Shown: positions 26,567 through 62,266 of the stretch, piece by piece
How the letters are laid out: every line of letters starts with the position of its first letter
Position numbering within the stretch: position 1 is the first letter of the stretch
Made by a program: the position numbers and the translations under genes
The notes under the pieces: model-generated
What the model saw: the letters and a program-made list of their open reading frames with translations, nothing else
Told to the model about the DNA's origin: nothing
Databases searched by the model: none
Assembly: GCF_003058365.1 (NCBI RefSeq)
Contig: NZ_CP028858.1
Location: forward strand, 2,344,836 to 2,408,835
Reading direction: 5' to 3'
DNA: 64,000 bases
Source: Halococcoides cellulosivorans
GTDB taxonomy: Archaea; Halobacteriota; Halobacteria; Halobacteriales; Haloarculaceae

Positions 26567-26732
26567 GGTGCGGTATGGAGATCACCGTATACGGTACAGA
26601 TACTTATCACTGCCACAATACTTCAGGCCCCCAGCAGTTGGGACAACTGTCGGTGTCGAAAATTCAACTGCGGAAACGAGATCGGGCCGGGAACGTAACG
26701 TATATCCTCGAACGGCGAAAATCGCCATGTGA

Positions 26733-26806
26733 GGGCCGGTAGCTCAGTCTGGCAGAGCGTCTGACTCTTAATCAGACGGTCGAGGGTTCAAATCCCTTCC
26801 GGCCCG
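26733..26806 (+). tRNA. tRNA-Lys (anticodon CTT)
   Basis: The 74-nt cloverleaf has acceptor arms GGGCCGG and CCGGCCC with discriminator G, a D-arm GCTCAGTCTGGCAGAGC, an anticodon stem TCTGA/TCAGA with loop CTCTTAA (anticodon CTT), and a T-arm with GGTTCAAATCC. No intron is seen and CCA is not encoded. Copies of its 3' part occur downstream. Confidence 0.97.
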
Positions 26807-28641: not shown

Positions 28642-28657
28642 GTAGGCGGTGGGTAAC
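28642..28657 (+). promoter_or_regulatory. GTAGGC-N6-TAAC promoter box of the flippase operon
   Basis: The sequence GTAGGCGGTGGGTAAC places its TA exactly 30 nt before a GTG at 28686. That GTG starts a short leader ORF rather than the flippase itself, whose ATG is 122 nt further from the box. Confidence 0.62.
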
Positions 28658-28685
28658 AACGACCGATCGTCTCGGTGTTCGACCC

Positions 28686-28781
28686 GTGACCGAACTGGGG
28701 ACCGTGGGCTGGCCGCGACCGTCCGTCGACGGTCAGCGTCGGCCGATCGGACAGACAGCGCCGTCTGACGCCGACCGATGA
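28686..28781 (+). CDS. Leader ORF of 31 codons overlapping the flippase start
   Basis: The ORF starts with GTG 30 nt after a TAAC box and encodes VTELGTVGWPRPSVDGQR and 13 more residues, rich in Arg, Pro and Gly. Its TGA (28779-28781) overlaps the flippase ATG (28778) as ATGA. This arrangement suggests a leaderless mRNA whose first ORF is translated and hands ribosomes to the flippase by translational coupling. Three other operons in this window have the same organisation. The peptide may have no function of its own. Expression is inferred from geometry only. Confidence 0.5.
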   Translation: MTELGTVGWPRPSVDGQRRPIGQTAPSDADR

Positions 28782-30281: not shown

Positions 30282-30297
30282 GTAGCCGAGCCATAAC
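30282..30297 (+). promoter_or_regulatory. GTAGCC-N6-TAAC promoter box of the GT2 gene
   Basis: The box GTAGCCGAGCCATAAC has its TA 30 nt before the ATG at 30326. Despite following the flippase gene closely, the glycosyltransferase thus appears to have its own leaderless promoter. Confidence 0.58.
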
Positions 30298-30325
30298 CAA
30301 GGCCATCGGAGACCCCGATCGACCG

Positions 30326-31459
30326 ATGACGACGCCGGCAGGGCCATCGCCACGAGCGACGCCGAGCGACGATCGAGACGTGAGCGACGCCGCTCCTGAC
30401 GCCGCGAGCGACCGCGCGAGCGGTGCCGGGCGTGTCGCCGCGAGCGGACCCGGCCGCGACGCGCGCTGCGCGGACCGTGACGATTCGCGCTCCCCCGACC
30501 TGTCGGTCGTGATCGTGACCTACGACGAAGGCGAGCGGATCGCGACCTGTCTCGACGCGGTGCTGGCGGCGACCCGCGACCGCGATGCCGAGATCGTCCT
30601 CGTCGATTCGAACTCGACCGACGACACCGTCGAACGGGCCGCAGCGTTCCCGATCGCGATCTACCGGATCACCGACGACCGGGTGACGACGCCCGGCGCG
30701 GGCCGGTTCGTCGGGACGCAGGTCACCCGTGGCGATCGCGTCCTGTTCGTCGACGGCGACATGGCAATTCGGAGCGACTGGCTCGATCGGGCGCTCGCGG
30801 TGCTCGACACCCACCCCGACGTCGCGGGCGTCGACGGTCAGTTGAACACGCCCGCCGCGAGCGATAGCGTCGAGCCGGTCGATTCGGTGCGTGGTGTCGC
30901 GCTCTACCGCCGATCGGCGCTCGATCGGGTCGGCGGGTTCGACCCGTTCTTGCGATCGGTCGAGGACATCCACCTGGGGTTCGAACTCCGCGCGGCGGGC
31001 TATCGGTGCTGTCGGCTCCCCGAGGTCGCCGCCGAGCATCCCGAGCGGCGCGGACTGTCCGAACCGCTCCGACGCTGGCGACGCGGCTACGCCGTCGGGC
31101 CGGGCCAGGCGCTCCGGCGGTCGCTGTTCGATCCCGGCCTGCTCGCCCAGCACCTCGCGCGCATGCGGTATCGACTCGCACTGGGGGTCTGGGCCGCGCT
31201 CGGCGTCGCGACACTCGCCGTCCCGGGCGCGACGACGCTCTGGATCCTTCTTTCGGCGCTCGCCCTCGCTGGACTCGCGATCGCGCGTGGGCCACGCGAG
31301 GCGATCCAGCTTCTGGTCTCGAAGGGGCTCGGCCTCGTCGGCGTCGCCCGCGGACTCGCGATCGACGTGCGACCGCGGTCCGAATTCCCGATGCGTGCCG
31401 TCGAGTGCGTGCAGTCGGAGGATCGCGATCCGATCGAGCGGCGGCGAGTCGAGGAGTGA
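30326..31459 (+). CDS. Family 2 glycosyltransferase with C-terminal membrane helices
   Basis: The 377-residue protein has an N-terminal low-complexity stretch of about 50 residues, then a GT-A domain: LSVVIVTYDEGERIATCLDA, EIVLVDSNSTDDTVE, the metal-binding VLFVDGDMAI and an acceptor loop SVEDIHLGFELRAAGY. C-terminal hydrophobic helices (LALGVWAALGVATLAV and the next) anchor it in the membrane. It likely adds a sugar from a nucleotide or dolichol-phosphate donor to a lipid-linked glycan. It follows the flippase and converges with a beta-helix protein gene, ending directly beside it. Confidence 0.9.
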   Translation: MTTPAGPSPRATPSDDRDVSDAAPDAASDRASGAGRVAASGPGRDARCADRDDSRSPDLSVVIVTYDEGERIATCLDAVLAATRDRDAEIVLVDSNSTDDTVERAAAFPIAIYRITDDRVTTPGAGRFVGTQVTRGDRVLFVDGDMAIRSDWLDRALAVLDTHPDVAGVDGQLNTPAASDSVEPVDSVRGVALYRRSALDRVGGFDPFLRSVEDIHLGFELRAAGYRCCRLPEVAAEHPERRGLSEPLRRWRRGYAVGPGQALRRSLFDPGLLAQHLARMRYRLALGVWAALGVATLAVPGATTLWILLSALALAGLAIARGPREAIQLLVSKGLGLVGVARGLAIDVRPRSEFPMRAVECVQSEDRDPIERRRVEE

Positions 31460-38688: not shown

Positions 38689-39876
38689 ATGACAGATTCC
38701 GATCGCGCCGCCGTCGTCCCCGCGGTCGGGACGCCAGGCTCGCTCAGCACGATTCGCTCGCTCGGGCGCGCGGGCGTCTACACGATTTCGGTCTCCGAGA
38801 TGTCGCGGCCGCCGTCGTTCAGCTCTCGGTACTGCGACGCGACCCGCGCGGTGCCCGACCCGACCGCCGACCTCGCAGGCTATCGCGACGCACTGCTCGC
38901 GCTCGCCGCCCGTGGCGACGTCGAGACGATCGTTCCGGTGCGGGAGGCAGACGTCCACGTGCTGGCCAGCCATCGCGAGCAGTTCGGCGCCCACATCGAA
39001 CCGCTCTGGCCCGATCGAGAGACGCTCGATTCCGTGCACGACCGCCTGGCGCTCACCGCGGCGGCCGAGCGCGCGGGCGTCGCCACGCCCGAGACCGTCC
39101 CGCTCGATGCGATCGACGACTGGGACCGCGAGCGGATCGTCAAAGCGCGCTACGCGTTGCTCACCGATCGGATGGGCGACGTGGCCCCGAACACCTGCCG
39201 GCAGCCCCCGACGACGCAGTTTCTCGCGCCCGGCGAGACGCCCGATATCGAGGCCCGCGTCGAGCAGATGGGCCACGTCCCCGTCGCCCAGACGTATCTC
39301 GACGGGCCGGAGTTCTGCCTGCGCGCGCTCTGTGTCGACGGCGAGGCAATCGTCACCTCACAGAAGCGGCTCCATCGCGGCTACAAGTACGCCCGCGGCC
39401 CGAGCGTCTACCACGAGGCCGTCGACGACCGCGCACTGACCGCGGCGGGCGAGGCGCTGCTCGCAGAACTCGACTACACGGGCCTCGCCTCGGTCGGGTT
39501 CATCCGCGACGAGGGCCGGTACCGCCTGCTGGAGATCAACCCGCGCGTGCCCGCGAGCATCCCGGTCGACATCCACGCCGGCGTCGACTATCCCCGGGCG
39601 TGCTGGCGACTGGCGACCGGGCGGGCGGTCGACCCAGCCGAGTACCGCCCGGGGACACACAGTCACCTCCTTCGAGGCGAACTCGTCCACCTCCACAGCG
39701 TGATCCGCGAGGAGTACCCCCTCGCCAAACGACCCGGAATCGGCGCGACGGTCGGGGCGATCGCCCGGTCGGTGCTCGAACATCCGAACTTCGATACGCT
39801 CAGCCGGGACGACCCCCGCCCGTTCGTCCGCGACGCGCTCAACGTCTCGCGATCGATGGTCCCGATCAGTCGGTGA
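38689..39876 (+). CDS. ATP-grasp ligase
   Basis: The 395-residue protein has the ATP-grasp layout: an N-terminal pre-ATP Rossmann-like domain (AVVPAVGTPGSLSTIRSLGR, TIVPVREADVHVL), a central ATP-binding part (VKARYALLTD, QTYLDGPEFCLRALCVDG) and the metal-binding RLLEINPRVPASI with the Glu and Asn expected in the family. Such enzymes join a carboxylate to an amine or thiol, so it might attach an amino acid or link sugar acids in the glycan. A GHVPVAQTYLDG stretch is typical of haloarchaeal ATP-grasp proteins found near polysaccharide genes. Its 3' end overlaps the convergent deacetylase gene by 11 bp. Confidence 0.88.
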   Translation: MTDSDRAAVVPAVGTPGSLSTIRSLGRAGVYTISVSEMSRPPSFSSRYCDATRAVPDPTADLAGYRDALLALAARGDVETIVPVREADVHVLASHREQFGAHIEPLWPDRETLDSVHDRLALTAAAERAGVATPETVPLDAIDDWDRERIVKARYALLTDRMGDVAPNTCRQPPTTQFLAPGETPDIEARVEQMGHVPVAQTYLDGPEFCLRALCVDGEAIVTSQKRLHRGYKYARGPSVYHEAVDDRALTAAGEALLAELDYTGLASVGFIRDEGRYRLLEINPRVPASIPVDIHAGVDYPRACWRLATGRAVDPAEYRPGTHSHLLRGELVHLHSVIREEYPLAKRPGIGATVGAIARSVLEHPNFDTLSRDDPRPFVRDALNVSRSMVPISR

Positions 39877-40846
39877 GTGGCGGGTCGGCCGGCACGGCCC
39901 GCTCGTCCGCGCTCGGCCTCGATGCGGCCTCACCAGCCAGGACACGCTCGGCGACCGTGCCCATCGTCTCGATACGCAACTGGCCCGCGTCGCGGCGCGC
40001 GGCGGCGTACGCGACGATCGACCGGACGCGGTCGACGTCGGCCGCGGTCTGGAGGTTGTTGGGGTGCAACCAGACGTGGAAGATCGCGCCCTCGCGACAC
40101 GCCCGGTCGATCCCGTGGCGGGCCTGCCGGACGATCGGATCGACCCCGAGGCGGTTCGCGACCTGCCGCGGGCGACCCTCGAACCCGAACAGATACAGCG
40201 ACGGCGGGATCGTGACGAGACCGTACGCGTCGATGCACGGCTCGACCAGGCGGGCCCGCGGGGTCGCGGCGTCACGGAGCTTCGCGGCCGTGCGGCGAAG
40301 CCGGCCCCGGGACGGGCCCCCGGCGCGGTAACAGGTGATCCCCGCGTCCACGAGCGCCTCGCGGTGGGCAATGGCGTTCCGGGGGAACACTGCGGAGTCG
40401 AGGTCGATCCCCCGGGCGTGGGCCACCCGCCGGTTCGCCGCGAGTTCGGCGCGAGCGATCGCTGGCGTCACGCGATCGTCCGCCAGCGGCGTATGCGAGA
40501 AGGTGTGTGCGGCGATCTCGTGGTCGGTCCGGCTCGTGGCGACGGCCGCAACGAGATCGGGCGCGAACCGCCACTCGGGGTGGGCGCGCCAGCCGTTGCG
40601 CTCGGCGGCGAACCAGTCGTCGATCGCGGGGTGGTCGGCGTGGGTGCGATCACACGCCGAGAGCAGCAAATGCCCGACGACCGCCCACGTCGCCGGGACG
40701 CGGTGGGCGTCGAGGACGGAGAGCAACCGTCGCCAGCCAGTCCGCGCCGCGGCGATCCGGTCGACGGGCCGGTCGTCGAGGTCGTGAAACCCCCAGCCGA
40801 GTTCCGCGTCGATCGAGATCACGAGCGTGCCCGCGGTCGCAGCCAT
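39866..40846 (-). CDS. Polysaccharide deacetylase (NodB-like)
   Basis: The 326-residue protein starts at the ATG at 40846 with TLVISIDAELGWGFHDLDD; SIDAELGW carries the catalytic Asp, as in carbohydrate esterase family 4 relatives. The metal-binding region is HEIAAHTFSHTPL (HxxxH). AVFPRNAIAHREAL and a C-terminal IFHVWLHPNNL supply the remaining active-site residues. No signal peptide is seen, so it is probably cytoplasmic and acts on a precursor. It is preceded by a GTAAGC-type promoter box 30 nt from the start, the same distance as for the VWA gene. Confidence 0.88.
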   Translation of the reverse strand: MAATAGTLVISIDAELGWGFHDLDDRPVDRIAAARTGWRRLLSVLDAHRVPATWAVVGHLLLSACDRTHADHPAIDDWFAAERNGWRAHPEWRFAPDLVAAVATSRTDHEIAAHTFSHTPLADDRVTPAIARAELAANRRVAHARGIDLDSAVFPRNAIAHREALVDAGITCYRAGGPSRGRLRRTAAKLRDAATPRARLVEPCIDAYGLVTIPPSLYLFGFEGRPRQVANRLGVDPIVRQARHGIDRACREGAIFHVWLHPNNLQTAADVDRVRSIVAYAAARRDAGQLRIETMGTVAERVLAGEAASRPSADERAVPADPPLTD

Positions 40847-40874
40847 GCATCGAAATCGGGCGCGTCGCCGGGTA

Positions 40875-40890
40875 GTTACGAGTGGCTTAG
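40875..40890 (-). promoter_or_regulatory. CTAAGC-N6-TAAC promoter box of the deacetylase gene
   Basis: Read towards the gene the sequence is CTAAGCCACTCGTAACTAC, differing at two positions from the VWA box. The TA is 30 nt before the ATG at 40846. Confidence 0.65.
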
Positions 40891-41066: not shown

Positions 41067-41150
41067 GTGACTGAGCGCTATCGAAGCCCCCGAGTACCGA
41101 TCGAGAACAGCGAATTACGCGGCGGTGTGTCCGCCGGGAGGGCGCCATGA
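41067..41150 (+). CDS. Leader ORF of 27 codons overlapping the Gfo/Idh start
   Basis: Starting at GTG, the ORF encodes VTERYRSPRVPIENSELRGG and seven more residues. Its TGA (41148-41150) overlaps the ATG at 41147 as ATGA. Like the flippase leader it begins VTE and is Arg/Pro-rich. Translation is inferred from the promoter distance and the stop-start overlap. Confidence 0.5.
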   Translation: MTERYRSPRVPIENSELRGGVSAGRAP

Positions 41151-45187: not shown

Positions 45188-45304
45188 GTGAGACGAATGC
45201 ACGCCCCACACGCGACACCCGGTCCGGAGCGGTCCCAGTGGGCCACCACCGGCGTCGAGCGAGCGAATGGTCCGCCGACCGCGACGCGGGAGGCCCGGGG
45301 ATGA
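45188..45304 (+). CDS. Leader ORF of 38 codons overlapping the lipid-kinase start
   Basis: From GTG the ORF encodes VRRMHAPHATPGPERSQWAT and 18 more residues; an internal ATG lies at 45197. Its TGA (45302-45304) overlaps the ATG at 45301 as ATGA. Position relative to the TAAC box supports leaderless translation. The peptide is basic and Pro/Gly-rich, unlike the acidic proteome, so the act of translation may matter more than the product. Confidence 0.48.
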   Translation: MRRMHAPHATPGPERSQWATTGVERANGPPTATREARG

Positions 45305-48771: not shown

Positions 48772-48865
48772 TTCGGGGCCCCACCGCCAGTCTCGACCAG
48801 CCCGGAACGCCAGACGCTACCGAATCCGGTCGATAACTATGCCCCTTCCCCCGGAAGTCGAGACG

Positions 48866-50215
48866 ATGACAGACCCCCAGCCGAACATCGTACTCATTCA
48901 CTGTCACGACCTGGGGCGGTATCTGGGGTGTTACGACTACGACGTCGACACGCCGGCGATCGAGTCGCTCGCGGACTCGGGGGCGCTGTTCACGGAGCAC
49001 TACGGGACCGCGCCCCAGTGTTCGCCCAGCCGAGGGAGTCTGATGACCGGCCGGTACCCCCACGTCAACGGCCTCGTCGGCCTCGCCCACGGCGCGTGGG
49101 AACTCGACGATGGCGAGCGCATCCTGCCACACTACCTCCAGGACGCCGGCTACGAGACCCACATGTTCGGACTCCAGCACATCACCCAGGACACCGACCG
49201 ACTCCGCTACGACCGGATCCACTCGGAGGGCAACCTCTATCCCGGCGTCTCGCCCGTCGTCCACGAGTCCAACCGGGCGCGGACCGTCGCGTCGGTGGTC
49301 TCGGAGTGGCTGGAAAGCGGGGCGTTCGACACGCCGTTTTTCGCCTCGGTCGGGTTTTTCGAACTCCACCGCTCCCAGGAGGCCGACGGCCGCTTCGGGT
49401 TCGACCCGGACCGATACGAGAAACACGACCCCGACCGGATCCGGCCGCTGCCCTACCTGCCGGACCGGCGCGGGATCCGCACCGACCTCGCGGAGATGCA
49501 CGGGATGGTCACCGCCATCGACGACGGGGTCGGGGAGATCGTCGCGACGCTCGAAGACACCGGCCTCGACGAGGAGACGCTGGTCGTGTTCACGACCGAA
49601 CACGGCATCGCCTTCCCGCGCGCGAAAGGGAGTTGCTACGACGCGGGCCTCGAAGTCGCGCTCATCCTCCGCTATCCGGGCCTCGCAGACGGGGGTGAGA
49701 CCTACGACGAACTGACGAGCAACGTCGACGTGTTGCCGACGCTCCTCGAACTCGTCGGGATCGACCGTCCCGACGCGATCGACGGCCGGAGTTTTCTCTC
49801 CGTACTGACCGACGACGAGTACACAGAGCGCGAGCAGGTGTTCGCTGAGATGACCTGGCACGACGTGTACAACCCCGTCCGGGCGATCCGGACAGACCAG
49901 TACAAGTACATCCGGAGTTTCTGGTATCTCCCGAAGGTGTACCTCACGGCGGACGTGTTCGCGAGCGAGGCCGGACGCGAAGTCCGCGAGAAATACGGCG
50001 CTCCGGGCCGGCCCTACGAGGAACTGTACGACCTCCAGGAGACGCCCCAGGAAGACGAGAACGTCGTCCACGAACCCCGGTATCAGGACGTGCGCTGCGA
50101 TCTCTCCCGACGGCTCAAAGACTGGATGGTCGAGACCAACGATCCGCTACTCGACGGGCCGGTCGTCCCCGACGACTTCGACGTGATCCAGCGCTGGCCC
50201 CACGAGCAGGAGTGA
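48866..50215 (+). CDS. Sulfatase (formylglycine type, CxPSR motif)
   Basis: The 449-residue protein belongs to the alkaline phosphatase superfamily: N-terminal PNIVLIHCHDLGRYLGCYD, with two metal ligands. The sulfatase signature CSPSRGSLMTGRYP carries the Cys that is converted to formylglycine. Metal ligands follow in VVFTTEHGIAFPRAKG. The start is decided by the box cgataacta, whose TA (48834) is 30 nt before the ATG at 48866; an ATG at 48839 lies within that promoter. No signal peptide is visible, so a cytoplasmic role or Tat-independent export must be considered. No formylglycine-generating enzyme gene is in the window. Confidence 0.9.
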   Translation: MTDPQPNIVLIHCHDLGRYLGCYDYDVDTPAIESLADSGALFTEHYGTAPQCSPSRGSLMTGRYPHVNGLVGLAHGAWELDDGERILPHYLQDAGYETHMFGLQHITQDTDRLRYDRIHSEGNLYPGVSPVVHESNRARTVASVVSEWLESGAFDTPFFASVGFFELHRSQEADGRFGFDPDRYEKHDPDRIRPLPYLPDRRGIRTDLAEMHGMVTAIDDGVGEIVATLEDTGLDEETLVVFTTEHGIAFPRAKGSCYDAGLEVALILRYPGLADGGETYDELTSNVDVLPTLLELVGIDRPDAIDGRSFLSVLTDDEYTEREQVFAEMTWHDVYNPVRAIRTDQYKYIRSFWYLPKVYLTADVFASEAGREVREKYGAPGRPYEELYDLQETPQEDENVVHEPRYQDVRCDLSRRLKDWMVETNDPLLDGPVVPDDFDVIQRWPHEQE

Positions 50216-61467: not shown

Positions 61468-61504
61468 TACGGACCGCTTACTCCCGTAATACCCCAGGCA
61501 TAAC
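61468..61504 (+). promoter_or_regulatory. TACGGACCGCTTAC element and cataac promoter box before the DUF7344 leader
   Basis: The element at 61468-61481 is followed by the 16-mer ATACCCCAGGCATAAC (61489-61504). Its TA lies 30 nt before the ATG at 61533, the start of a 14-codon leader ORF, and about 71 nt before the DUF7344 GTG. The rest of the 313-bp gap (61261-61573) holds no gene. Confidence 0.6.
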
Positions 61505-61532
61505 TATACCCAATCGAGGCCCATACTGTGGT

Positions 61533-61577
61533 ATGATCTGCCTCACCGATACATCCGAACGGGAGTCAGACTCGTGA
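61533..61577 (+). CDS. Leader ORF of 14 codons overlapping the DUF7344 start
   Basis: The ORF encodes MICLTDTSERESDS. Its TGA (61575-61577) overlaps the GTG at 61574 as GTGA. The ATG, not the GTG, lies at the 30-nt distance from the cataac box, so the leader should be translated first and pass ribosomes on. Too short to be a folded protein. Confidence 0.55.
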   Translation: MICLTDTSERESDS

Positions 61578-62266
61578 CGCCAGACACCGACGAGTCCGTC
61601 GCCTCCGAGACCGACGATCCCGAGACCCGATCGTCCAAAACCAGCGAGTCCGCCGCGGCCGAGACCGACGGGTCGGGGGCTCAATCGCCCGACGCCGGCG
61701 ATTCCGTCACGGCCGAGACCGACGGGTCGACGGCGCTCTCGCCCGACGACGTCTTCGAAATCCTGAGCAACCACCGCCGGCGGATGGTGTTGTACTACCT
61801 CCGCCATCACGGCGACAGTGCGACGGTGAACGAACTCGCTGACGAGATCGCCGCGATGGAAAACGAGGTCGAAGTCGACGAGATCACCAGCCAGCAGCGC
61901 AAGCGCGTGTACGTCTCACTGTACCAGACCCACCTGCCGAAAATGGACGATCACGACGTCCTCGAATACGACCAGGACGAGGGGGCAGTCAGTCTCGGCC
62001 CCCAGAGCGCGACGATCGACCGGTATCTCGGCGGCGGCGCGGTCAGCTCGAACCCGTGGACGCTCCGGCATCTCGCCGTCGTCCTGTTCGGCGGGACGAT
62101 CCTCGCGCTCTCGCTGTTCGGCGTCCCCGGTTTCGACGCCATCCCCTCGAACTGGGCCGGCCTCGGCCTCCTTTTTTTGTACGTGACGTCGGCCGGGTCG
62201 GGCTATTTCTTCCAGAAGCGACGAACCAATGAGATTCCGCTGGAGACCGACTACCCGAACAAGTAG
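61574..62266 (+). CDS. DUF7344-type winged-helix membrane protein
   Basis: The 230-residue protein starts at GTG. An acidic low-complexity N-terminus of about 55 residues with near-repeated AETDGS is followed by a wHTH-like DUF7344 domain: LSPDDVFEILSNHRRRMVLY, then YLRHHGDSATVNELADEIAA, and QQRKRVYVSLYQTHLPKMDD. Two C-terminal hydrophobic helices follow (VVLFGGTILALSLFGVPGF, then LGLLFLYVTSAGSGYFF). Such membrane-tethered HTH proteins are abundant in haloarchaea and often lie near surface-polysaccharide genes. It probably binds DNA from the membrane or a ligand in the helix domain. Confidence 0.84.
   Translation: MTPDTDESVASETDDPETRSSKTSESAAAETDGSGAQSPDAGDSVTAETDGSTALSPDDVFEILSNHRRRMVLYYLRHHGDSATVNELADEIAAMENEVEVDEITSQQRKRVYVSLYQTHLPKMDDHDVLEYDQDEGAVSLGPQSATIDRYLGGGAVSSNPWTLRHLAVVLFGGTILALSLFGVPGFDAIPSNWAGLGLLFLYVTSAGSGYFFQKRRTNEIPLETDYPNK

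Follow-up and report, generated by a model that had tools for sequence, protein, structure and literature searches.

In a 64-kb stretch of the Halococcoides cellulosivorans genome (the window; NZ_CP028858.1, 2,344,836-2,408,835, forward strand), the genes for a flippase, a Gfo/Idh oxidoreductase, a lipid kinase and a DUF7344 protein are each preceded by a short open reading frame (ORF) that begins at a nearly constant distance from an upstream TAAC box (T-box) and whose stop codon overlaps the start codon of the main gene. The arrangement and its position relative to the box recur in many haloarchaeal genera, and the reading frame of the short ORF is kept while its peptide evolves neutrally. 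Judging from the sequences, the best explanation is probably that ribosomes initiate on the short ORF of a leaderless transcript and then pass into the enzyme gene by termination-reinitiation.

All four short ORFs (hereafter leader ORFs) were verified in the window as the original prediction had placed them, in coordinates, frame and length (31, 27, 38 and 14 aa), and each overlaps its main gene by 4 nt, as ATGA in three cases and GTGA in one. The boxes start at 28654, 41034, 45158 and 61501. Measured from the T of TAAC, the leader ORFs begin 32, 33, 30 and 32 nt downstream and the main genes 124, 113, 143 and 73 nt downstream. Counted from the last base of the box, 26-29 nt separate box and leader ORF, slightly less than the 28-31 nt predicted. 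Three of the four leader ORFs start with GTG, and the exact start of the third (45188) is ambiguous because an in-frame ATG lies 9 nt downstream (45197, 35 aa). The assignment of the main starts is sound: no earlier start is possible in the ORFs that begin at 28778, 41147 and 61574, close homologues align from residues 1-10 (flippase) or 1-7 (Gfo/Idh and lipid kinase), and the conserved domain of the DUF7344 protein has no other in-frame start before it.

On the + strand of the window there are only 17 occurrences of TAAC. Several main genes start 32 nt from the same box (30326 and 48866 on the + strand, 28536 and 40846 on the - strand) and are predicted to be leaderless. Non-redundant functional boxes have a composite consensus. 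Upstream of the T of TAAC, position -10 is A in 90% and position -11 is T or A in 84%; the core is A at -1 (74%) followed by TAAC[A/T]A[A/T]; T is preferred at +21, the start lies at about +32, and a weaker TA is found at -31/-30. When a composite box in a relative is near the main gene, the called main start is 30-35 nt away in 22 of 29 cases; when it is far, a start codon is found at 31-33 nt in 36 of 74, compared to 2-10 in control windows. Training on 237 leading genes gave an ACGTTTA-like general promoter for the genome, located about 33 nt before the start. A motif near this distance was assigned to ~77% of the 237, which fits a mostly leaderless transcriptome. At the starts of the four main genes themselves, no general promoter is present (position weight matrix scores -0.6 to -4.6).

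The orthologues analyzed all come from other genera, at approximately 50-70% protein identity, with no same-genus genome among the matches listed. Absence from close relatives would have spoken against the original prediction; instead, in the orthologues of each of the four genes the box is retained, a start codon follows after about 32 nt and the ORF terminates at or close to the main start, although the leaders themselves look unrelated in sequence. All five of the closest Gfo/Idh orthologues have a GTG at 31-32 nt that opens an ORF of 35-56 codons, with the stop at -4 relative to the main start in three and at -8 in two. In the flippase orthologues L143 (35 aa) and L144 (18 aa) the stop is at -4. 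The lipid kinase orthologues L083, L086 and L089 stop at +2, +5 and -4, and those of DUF7344 at -4 (L114, L116, L117) or, in several more, within ~10 nt. The proposed systematic coupling of short ORFs on leaderless mRNAs to the first glycan gene is thus supported by recurrence across genera, among them Halapricum, Halonotius, Halorussus, Natrialba, Halogeometricum and Halorubrum. The ATGA overlap, which had been put forward as the common feature, is not required: relatives also use -1 (TGATG or TAATG), -8 and short gaps.

The arrangement is more frequent than expected by chance. Over all haloarchaeal loci outside the source genome, 134 boxes lie far from the main start (at least 60 nt), and 43 of these have an ATG or GTG at 31-33 nt, compared to 6-18 in control windows. 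Considering only the 44 resulting ORFs that are not in the main frame, 32 end within -15 to +10 of the main start, whereas dinucleotide shuffling of the leaders predicts 16.2 (P = 6e-10). ORFs in the remaining two frames end there in only 3 of 33 and 5 of 16 cases. Of 169 start codons at other positions in these leaders, 71 also lead to the main start, probably because many of them share the same open frame.

The cleanest test is provided by proteins beginning MCGI that are encoded next to glycan clusters and contain the SIS and glutamine amidotransferase domains of GlmS (Pfam, L227). In such enzymes, the cysteine at residue 2 must become N-terminal. The start codon is therefore certain and fusion with the leader ORF is excluded. 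With TGC or TGT as its second codon, glmS cannot form an ATGA overlap, and a tight overlap takes the -1 form. A box together with an MCGI start is present in 27 of 30 GlmS homologues. Wherever an ATG lies at 31-33 nt, the ORF stops at exactly -1 (TGATG or TAATG; 15 of 15, five genera); in two further homologues the ORF begins at 35 nt and its stop lies at +2 or +1. Among the remaining ten, six (L312, L315, L322, L325, L333, L336) have an ATG 36-81 nt from the box and a stop at -1, three (L316, L317, L318) have an ATG at 66-69 nt and a stop at +2, and only L323 has no such ORF close to the box. The source genome's own glmS (L315, G000:C1:2439558-2441342) belongs to the six: its 43-codon leader ORF begins 36 nt from the box (at L315 3452) rather than at 31-33 nt and stops at -1 (TAATG).

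The frame of the leader ORF is kept whereas its peptide, as sequence comparison indicates, evolves neutrally. Within two genera, the ratio of non-synonymous to synonymous differences (pN/pS) in glmS leaders is 0.86 (79 codons) and 1.02 (25 codons), compared to 0.12 and 0.28 for the first 200 codons of glmS in the same comparisons. Another six pairings with no sequence in common (five glmS, one gfo) give a pooled leader pN/pS of 0.98; their pooled main-gene ratio is inflated by one misaligned pair, and the two-genus values are used instead. The leader ORF alignments contain only two indels, each of 6 nt and in frame, whereas flanking upstream sequence has indels of other sizes. The composition of the leader ORFs looks non-coding despite the kept frame, with 8.7% acidic and 16.6% basic residues and a third-position GC content of 0.67, compared to 15.6%, 8.4% and 0.87 in the main genes. 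The term 'leader peptide' used originally thus puts the emphasis in the wrong place because, although ORF and frame recur, the peptide is free to change. Likewise, two of the window peptides do begin with VTE, but this means little, since most orthologous peptides begin otherwise. Recurrence across genera together with a freely evolving peptide suggests that what counts is that the ORF is translated, and not which peptide results.

In the source genome, sampled as 40 stretches of 20 kb with genes called by a purpose-made gene finder, boxes far from a main start again show start codons accumulating 32-33 nt away, with ORFs that terminate at the main start. Two such cases lie near the window (L049): a 19-aa ORF with a -4 stop ahead of a sulfatase gene and a 26-aa ORF with a -8 stop ahead of a gene for a 652-aa protein. 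The T-box occurs at 5 of 145 overlap-type starts and at 2 of 1415 other starts, an enrichment that is not independent proof by itself because four of the five are the discovery cases. For ACGTTTA-type boxes the corresponding counts are 6 of 145 and 24 of 1415, a weak signal; the overlap test for these promoters was not significant in the relative G001, and T[AG]ATG was not enriched at genes without a proximal promoter. An extension of the arrangement to general promoters genome-wide was dropped on these grounds. In a few genes with an ACGTTTA-type promoter, a short ORF does begin where the transcript is predicted to start and ends in a -4 overlap (L037 17412-, L051 16578-, L176 2331- and 18515-), with weak enrichment.

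Based on these observations, we propose that the composite promoter TA-N9-TAACAA would place the 5′ end of the transcript some 32 nt downstream of the T of TAAC. In part of the promoter class, the enzyme gene would begin at the transcript start and be translated leaderless. In the rest, where the enzyme gene begins tens to more than 200 nt further downstream, the transcript would open with the short ORF; a ribosome would initiate leaderless there, translate through to the stop codon and, with the stop overlapping or touching the enzyme start codon, re-initiate, often beside a Shine-Dalgarno (SD)-like sequence. The short ORF would serve as a track for ribosome delivery, its peptide remaining unused, and expression of the enzyme would depend on it. 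In Haloferax, 72% of protein-coding transcripts are leaderless and 28% have a 5′ untranslated region (5′-UTR) (PMC4983044), the SD sequence did not drive initiation in one tested 5′-UTR (PMC3986360), and coupling was strict in 9 of 9 gene pairs with overlaps or near-overlaps tested in Haloferax volcanii (Huber et al., 2019, PMC6728339); the original prediction had also noted that coupling by ATGA overlap is known. A main gene far from the transcript start would therefore gain from an ORF at the 5′ end that ends at its start. Of 46 coupled main starts, 24 have an SD-like 4-mer ahead of them, compared to 2-7 in shifted windows, which matches a helper role in re-initiation. GTG starts 11 of 32 leader ORFs but only 1 of 16 leaderless main genes with a box, a preference that may set a lower input.

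Several observations weigh against this mechanism. Some 50% of the composite boxes in far positions lack an ATG or GTG at 31-33 nt, and the GlmS leaders that begin at 36-81 nt would not be strictly leaderless if the transcript starts at ~32 nt. The relatives sampled are not phylogenetically independent. GTG was a poor leaderless start codon in reporter studies, as far as PMC4983044 relates them, although 118 natural GTG leaderless starts are known. The SD-like motifs could instead mean direct initiation at the main start, the short ORFs being incidental or mildly useful on an ordinary 5′-UTR, a type of leader that more than a quarter of Haloferax protein-coding transcripts carry. Direct initiation leaves unexplained why start codons fall exactly at the predicted transcript start, why frames remain intact with in-frame indels and why stops lie at exactly -1 or -4, and it would lean on an SD function that was inactive in the 5′-UTR tested; we consider it unlikely.

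The other alternatives fare worse. Short leader ORFs ahead of biosynthetic genes, with GTG starts that could tune input, are reminiscent of regulatory attenuators, in which a ribosome stalled at certain codons or by the nascent peptide controls the downstream gene. The leader peptides have no residues or codon runs in common and a pN/pS of about 1, the leader RNA folds no better than shuffled sequence (z -0.63 to 1.67), and a search for known RNA families gave one tRNA and no leader RNA; neither regulatory codons or a stalling peptide nor alternative structures or a terminator was found, making attenuation very unlikely. Small proteins are common in haloarchaea (PMC4983044), and the ORFs might encode functional ones within the operon. 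The near-neutral pN/pS, the unrelated sequences at orthologous loci, the lack of any Pfam family in the peptides, and a basic composition and third-position GC content unlike those of the main proteins describe something other than a conserved, coding-biased (in haloarchaea, acidic) small protein, and we give this reading hardly any weight. Finally, such ORFs could arise by chance where ATGA starts are frequent and GC-rich leaders are long and poor in stop codons: among leading genes, roughly 30-45% have NTGA starts, and ~37% of ORFs in shuffled leaders extend to the main start (16.2/44). The position control, the frame control, the conservation and the GlmS test refute chance for the class as a whole, leaving it the least probable account, and a single window case could still be fortuitous. 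Of the readings considered, leaderless initiation followed by re-initiation at the main start remains the one we prefer.

Features of the four loci and of comparator genes in the window
Feature	Coordinates	Strand	Like layout elsewhere
Composite T-box promoter 1, TA at -11/-10, TAACAAC	28643..28660	+	
Leader ORF 1, 31 aa, GTG start, ATGA overlap	28686..28781	+	orthologues L143, L144
Flippase (PF01943), 492 aa	28778..30256	+	
T-box 2, TAACAAA	41034..41040	+	
Leader ORF 2, 27 aa, GTG start, ATGA overlap	41067..41150	+	L053-L057
SD-like GGGAGGG within leader ORF 2	41136-41142	+	
Gfo/Idh oxidoreductase (PF01408), 322 aa	41147..42115	+	
Composite T-box promoter 3, TA ... TAACAAA	45147..45164	+	
Leader ORF 3, 38 aa, ATGA overlap	45188..45304	+	L083, L086, L089 (similar)
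SD-like GGGAGG within leader ORF 3	45288-45293	+	
Lipid kinase (DAGK_cat, YegS_C), 298 aa	45301..46197	+	
Composite T-box promoter 4, TA ... TAACTAT	61490..61507	+	
Leader ORF 4, 14 aa, ATG start, GTGA overlap	61533..61577	+	L114, L116, L117
DUF7344 protein (PF24035), 230 aa	61574..62266	+	
Comparator GT2, start 30326, T-box 30294, 32 nt apart, predicted leaderless	30294..31459	+	
Comparator sulfatase, start 48866, T-box 48834, 32 nt apart, predicted leaderless	48834..50215	+	
Comparator polysaccharide deacetylase, start 40846, T-box 40878, 32 nt apart, predicted leaderless	39866..40878	-	
Further composite box	30283-30300	+	
Further composite box	28579-28562	-	
Further composite box	40889-40872	-	

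The targets of the box include DegT aminotransferases, GlmS, polysaccharide deacetylase, GT2, UDP-GlcNAc 2-epimerase, and FemAB-like, DUF1616, CARDB and DUF7344 proteins. With these functions, the set looks like a cell-surface glycan regulon. That the composite promoter [TA]A-N9-(A)TAACAA is common to glycan genes of many haloarchaeal genera suggests a dedicated activator or transcription factor. DUF7344 genes (61574-62266 in the window; relatives L113-L141, L227, L230) repeatedly have the box upstream and lie near the glycan clusters; should DUF7344 be a regulator, control of the glycan regulon and of itself would be conceivable. A more far-reaching version, in which the regulon is run by the dedicated promoter together with obligatory leaderless mini-ORFs, the enzymes being unable to initiate alone and their output being gated at mini-ORF initiation, would amount to an order-wide translational control specific to the surface regulon; we regard it as doubtful.

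Some further features of the boxes and leaders were observed. Polysaccharide deacetylase-like genes in two genera (L053 2671-2724, L142 494-547) have leader ORFs of 6 codons that begin 32 nt from the box and end in a TAGTG overlap. A GCTTAC element lies ~20-25 nt upstream of the CATAAC box in the lipid kinase orthologues L085, L086, L089 and L090, and GCTTAC/CTTACC is among the commoner 6-mers upstream of boxes. In the window, a tRNA-Lys (CTT) gene has a TAAC box 37 nt upstream (26696-26806).

The closest known system is that of mycobacteria, where small leaderless ORFs are coupled through RTGA to the downstream gene and the linkage is maintained but the peptide is not (Shell et al., 2015, PMC4633059). 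The haloarchaeal leaders resemble these in the RTGA stop/start overlap, present at all four window loci and in many relatives, and in the conservation of linkage rather than peptide. In the mycobacterial type an ATG or GTG stands at the 5′ end of the transcript; here a start codon lies at the transcript start predicted from the box. The haloarchaeal leaders differ in being archaeal, in belonging to one composite promoter and to glycan genes, and in also using -1 overlaps; the mycobacterial ORFs are backed by transcription start sites and ribosome profiling and are not described as a single promoter class. The Haloferax termination-reinitiation pairs share the 4-nt AUGA or 1-nt overlap, often with an internal SD motif, and the leader stop and main start likewise overlap or lie a few nucleotides apart. 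The upstream partners tested there were ordinary genes, whereas here the partner is a short, apparently functionless ORF predicted to open the mRNA. Babski et al. (2016, PMC4983044) described 16 upstream ORFs of 15-31 aa and low pI in 150-250-nt UTRs of Haloferax volcanii, one before the glycan flippase gene agl15. These too are short ORFs upstream of main genes; overlap, coupling and conservation were not claimed for them, and the window leaders are 41-113 nt long with peptides that are basic overall. At the Haloferax flippase loci we found no clear T-box with leader ORF, apart from one 4-codon case (L348), so the published agl15 ORF could not be linked to the T-box promoter. A leaderless bicistronic expression design in Corynebacterium glutamicum (PMC10367133) also places two cistrons on a leaderless promoter; that cassette is engineered, whereas the haloarchaeal arrangement is natural and conserved. 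In a 2025 review, ribosome delivery via a short upstream ORF figures among the functions proposed for coupling. The original prediction did not recognise systematic leader peptides on leaderless haloarchaeal mRNAs of glycan genes from elsewhere. The mycobacterial ORFs give the idea a precedent. For haloarchaea, our literature search, with most subscription papers outside its reach, turned up no description of a conserved class linked to a promoter element. The conserved haloarchaeal version, tied to the composite promoter TA-N9-TAACAA of glycan genes, appears to be new.

These ORFs also carry a warning for annotation, being conserved in frame and position yet probably without a functional protein. 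The GlmS family, with its start codon fixed by the cysteine at residue 2, offers an unusually clean test bed. Haloarchaeal mRNAs are mostly leaderless, and the SD sequence did not drive initiation in a tested Haloferax 5′-UTR. As to how genes far from the transcript start get translated, a conserved delivery ORF whose sequence is neutral would be a concrete, directly testable answer for one promoter class, and would parallel in another domain of life the solution found in mycobacteria.
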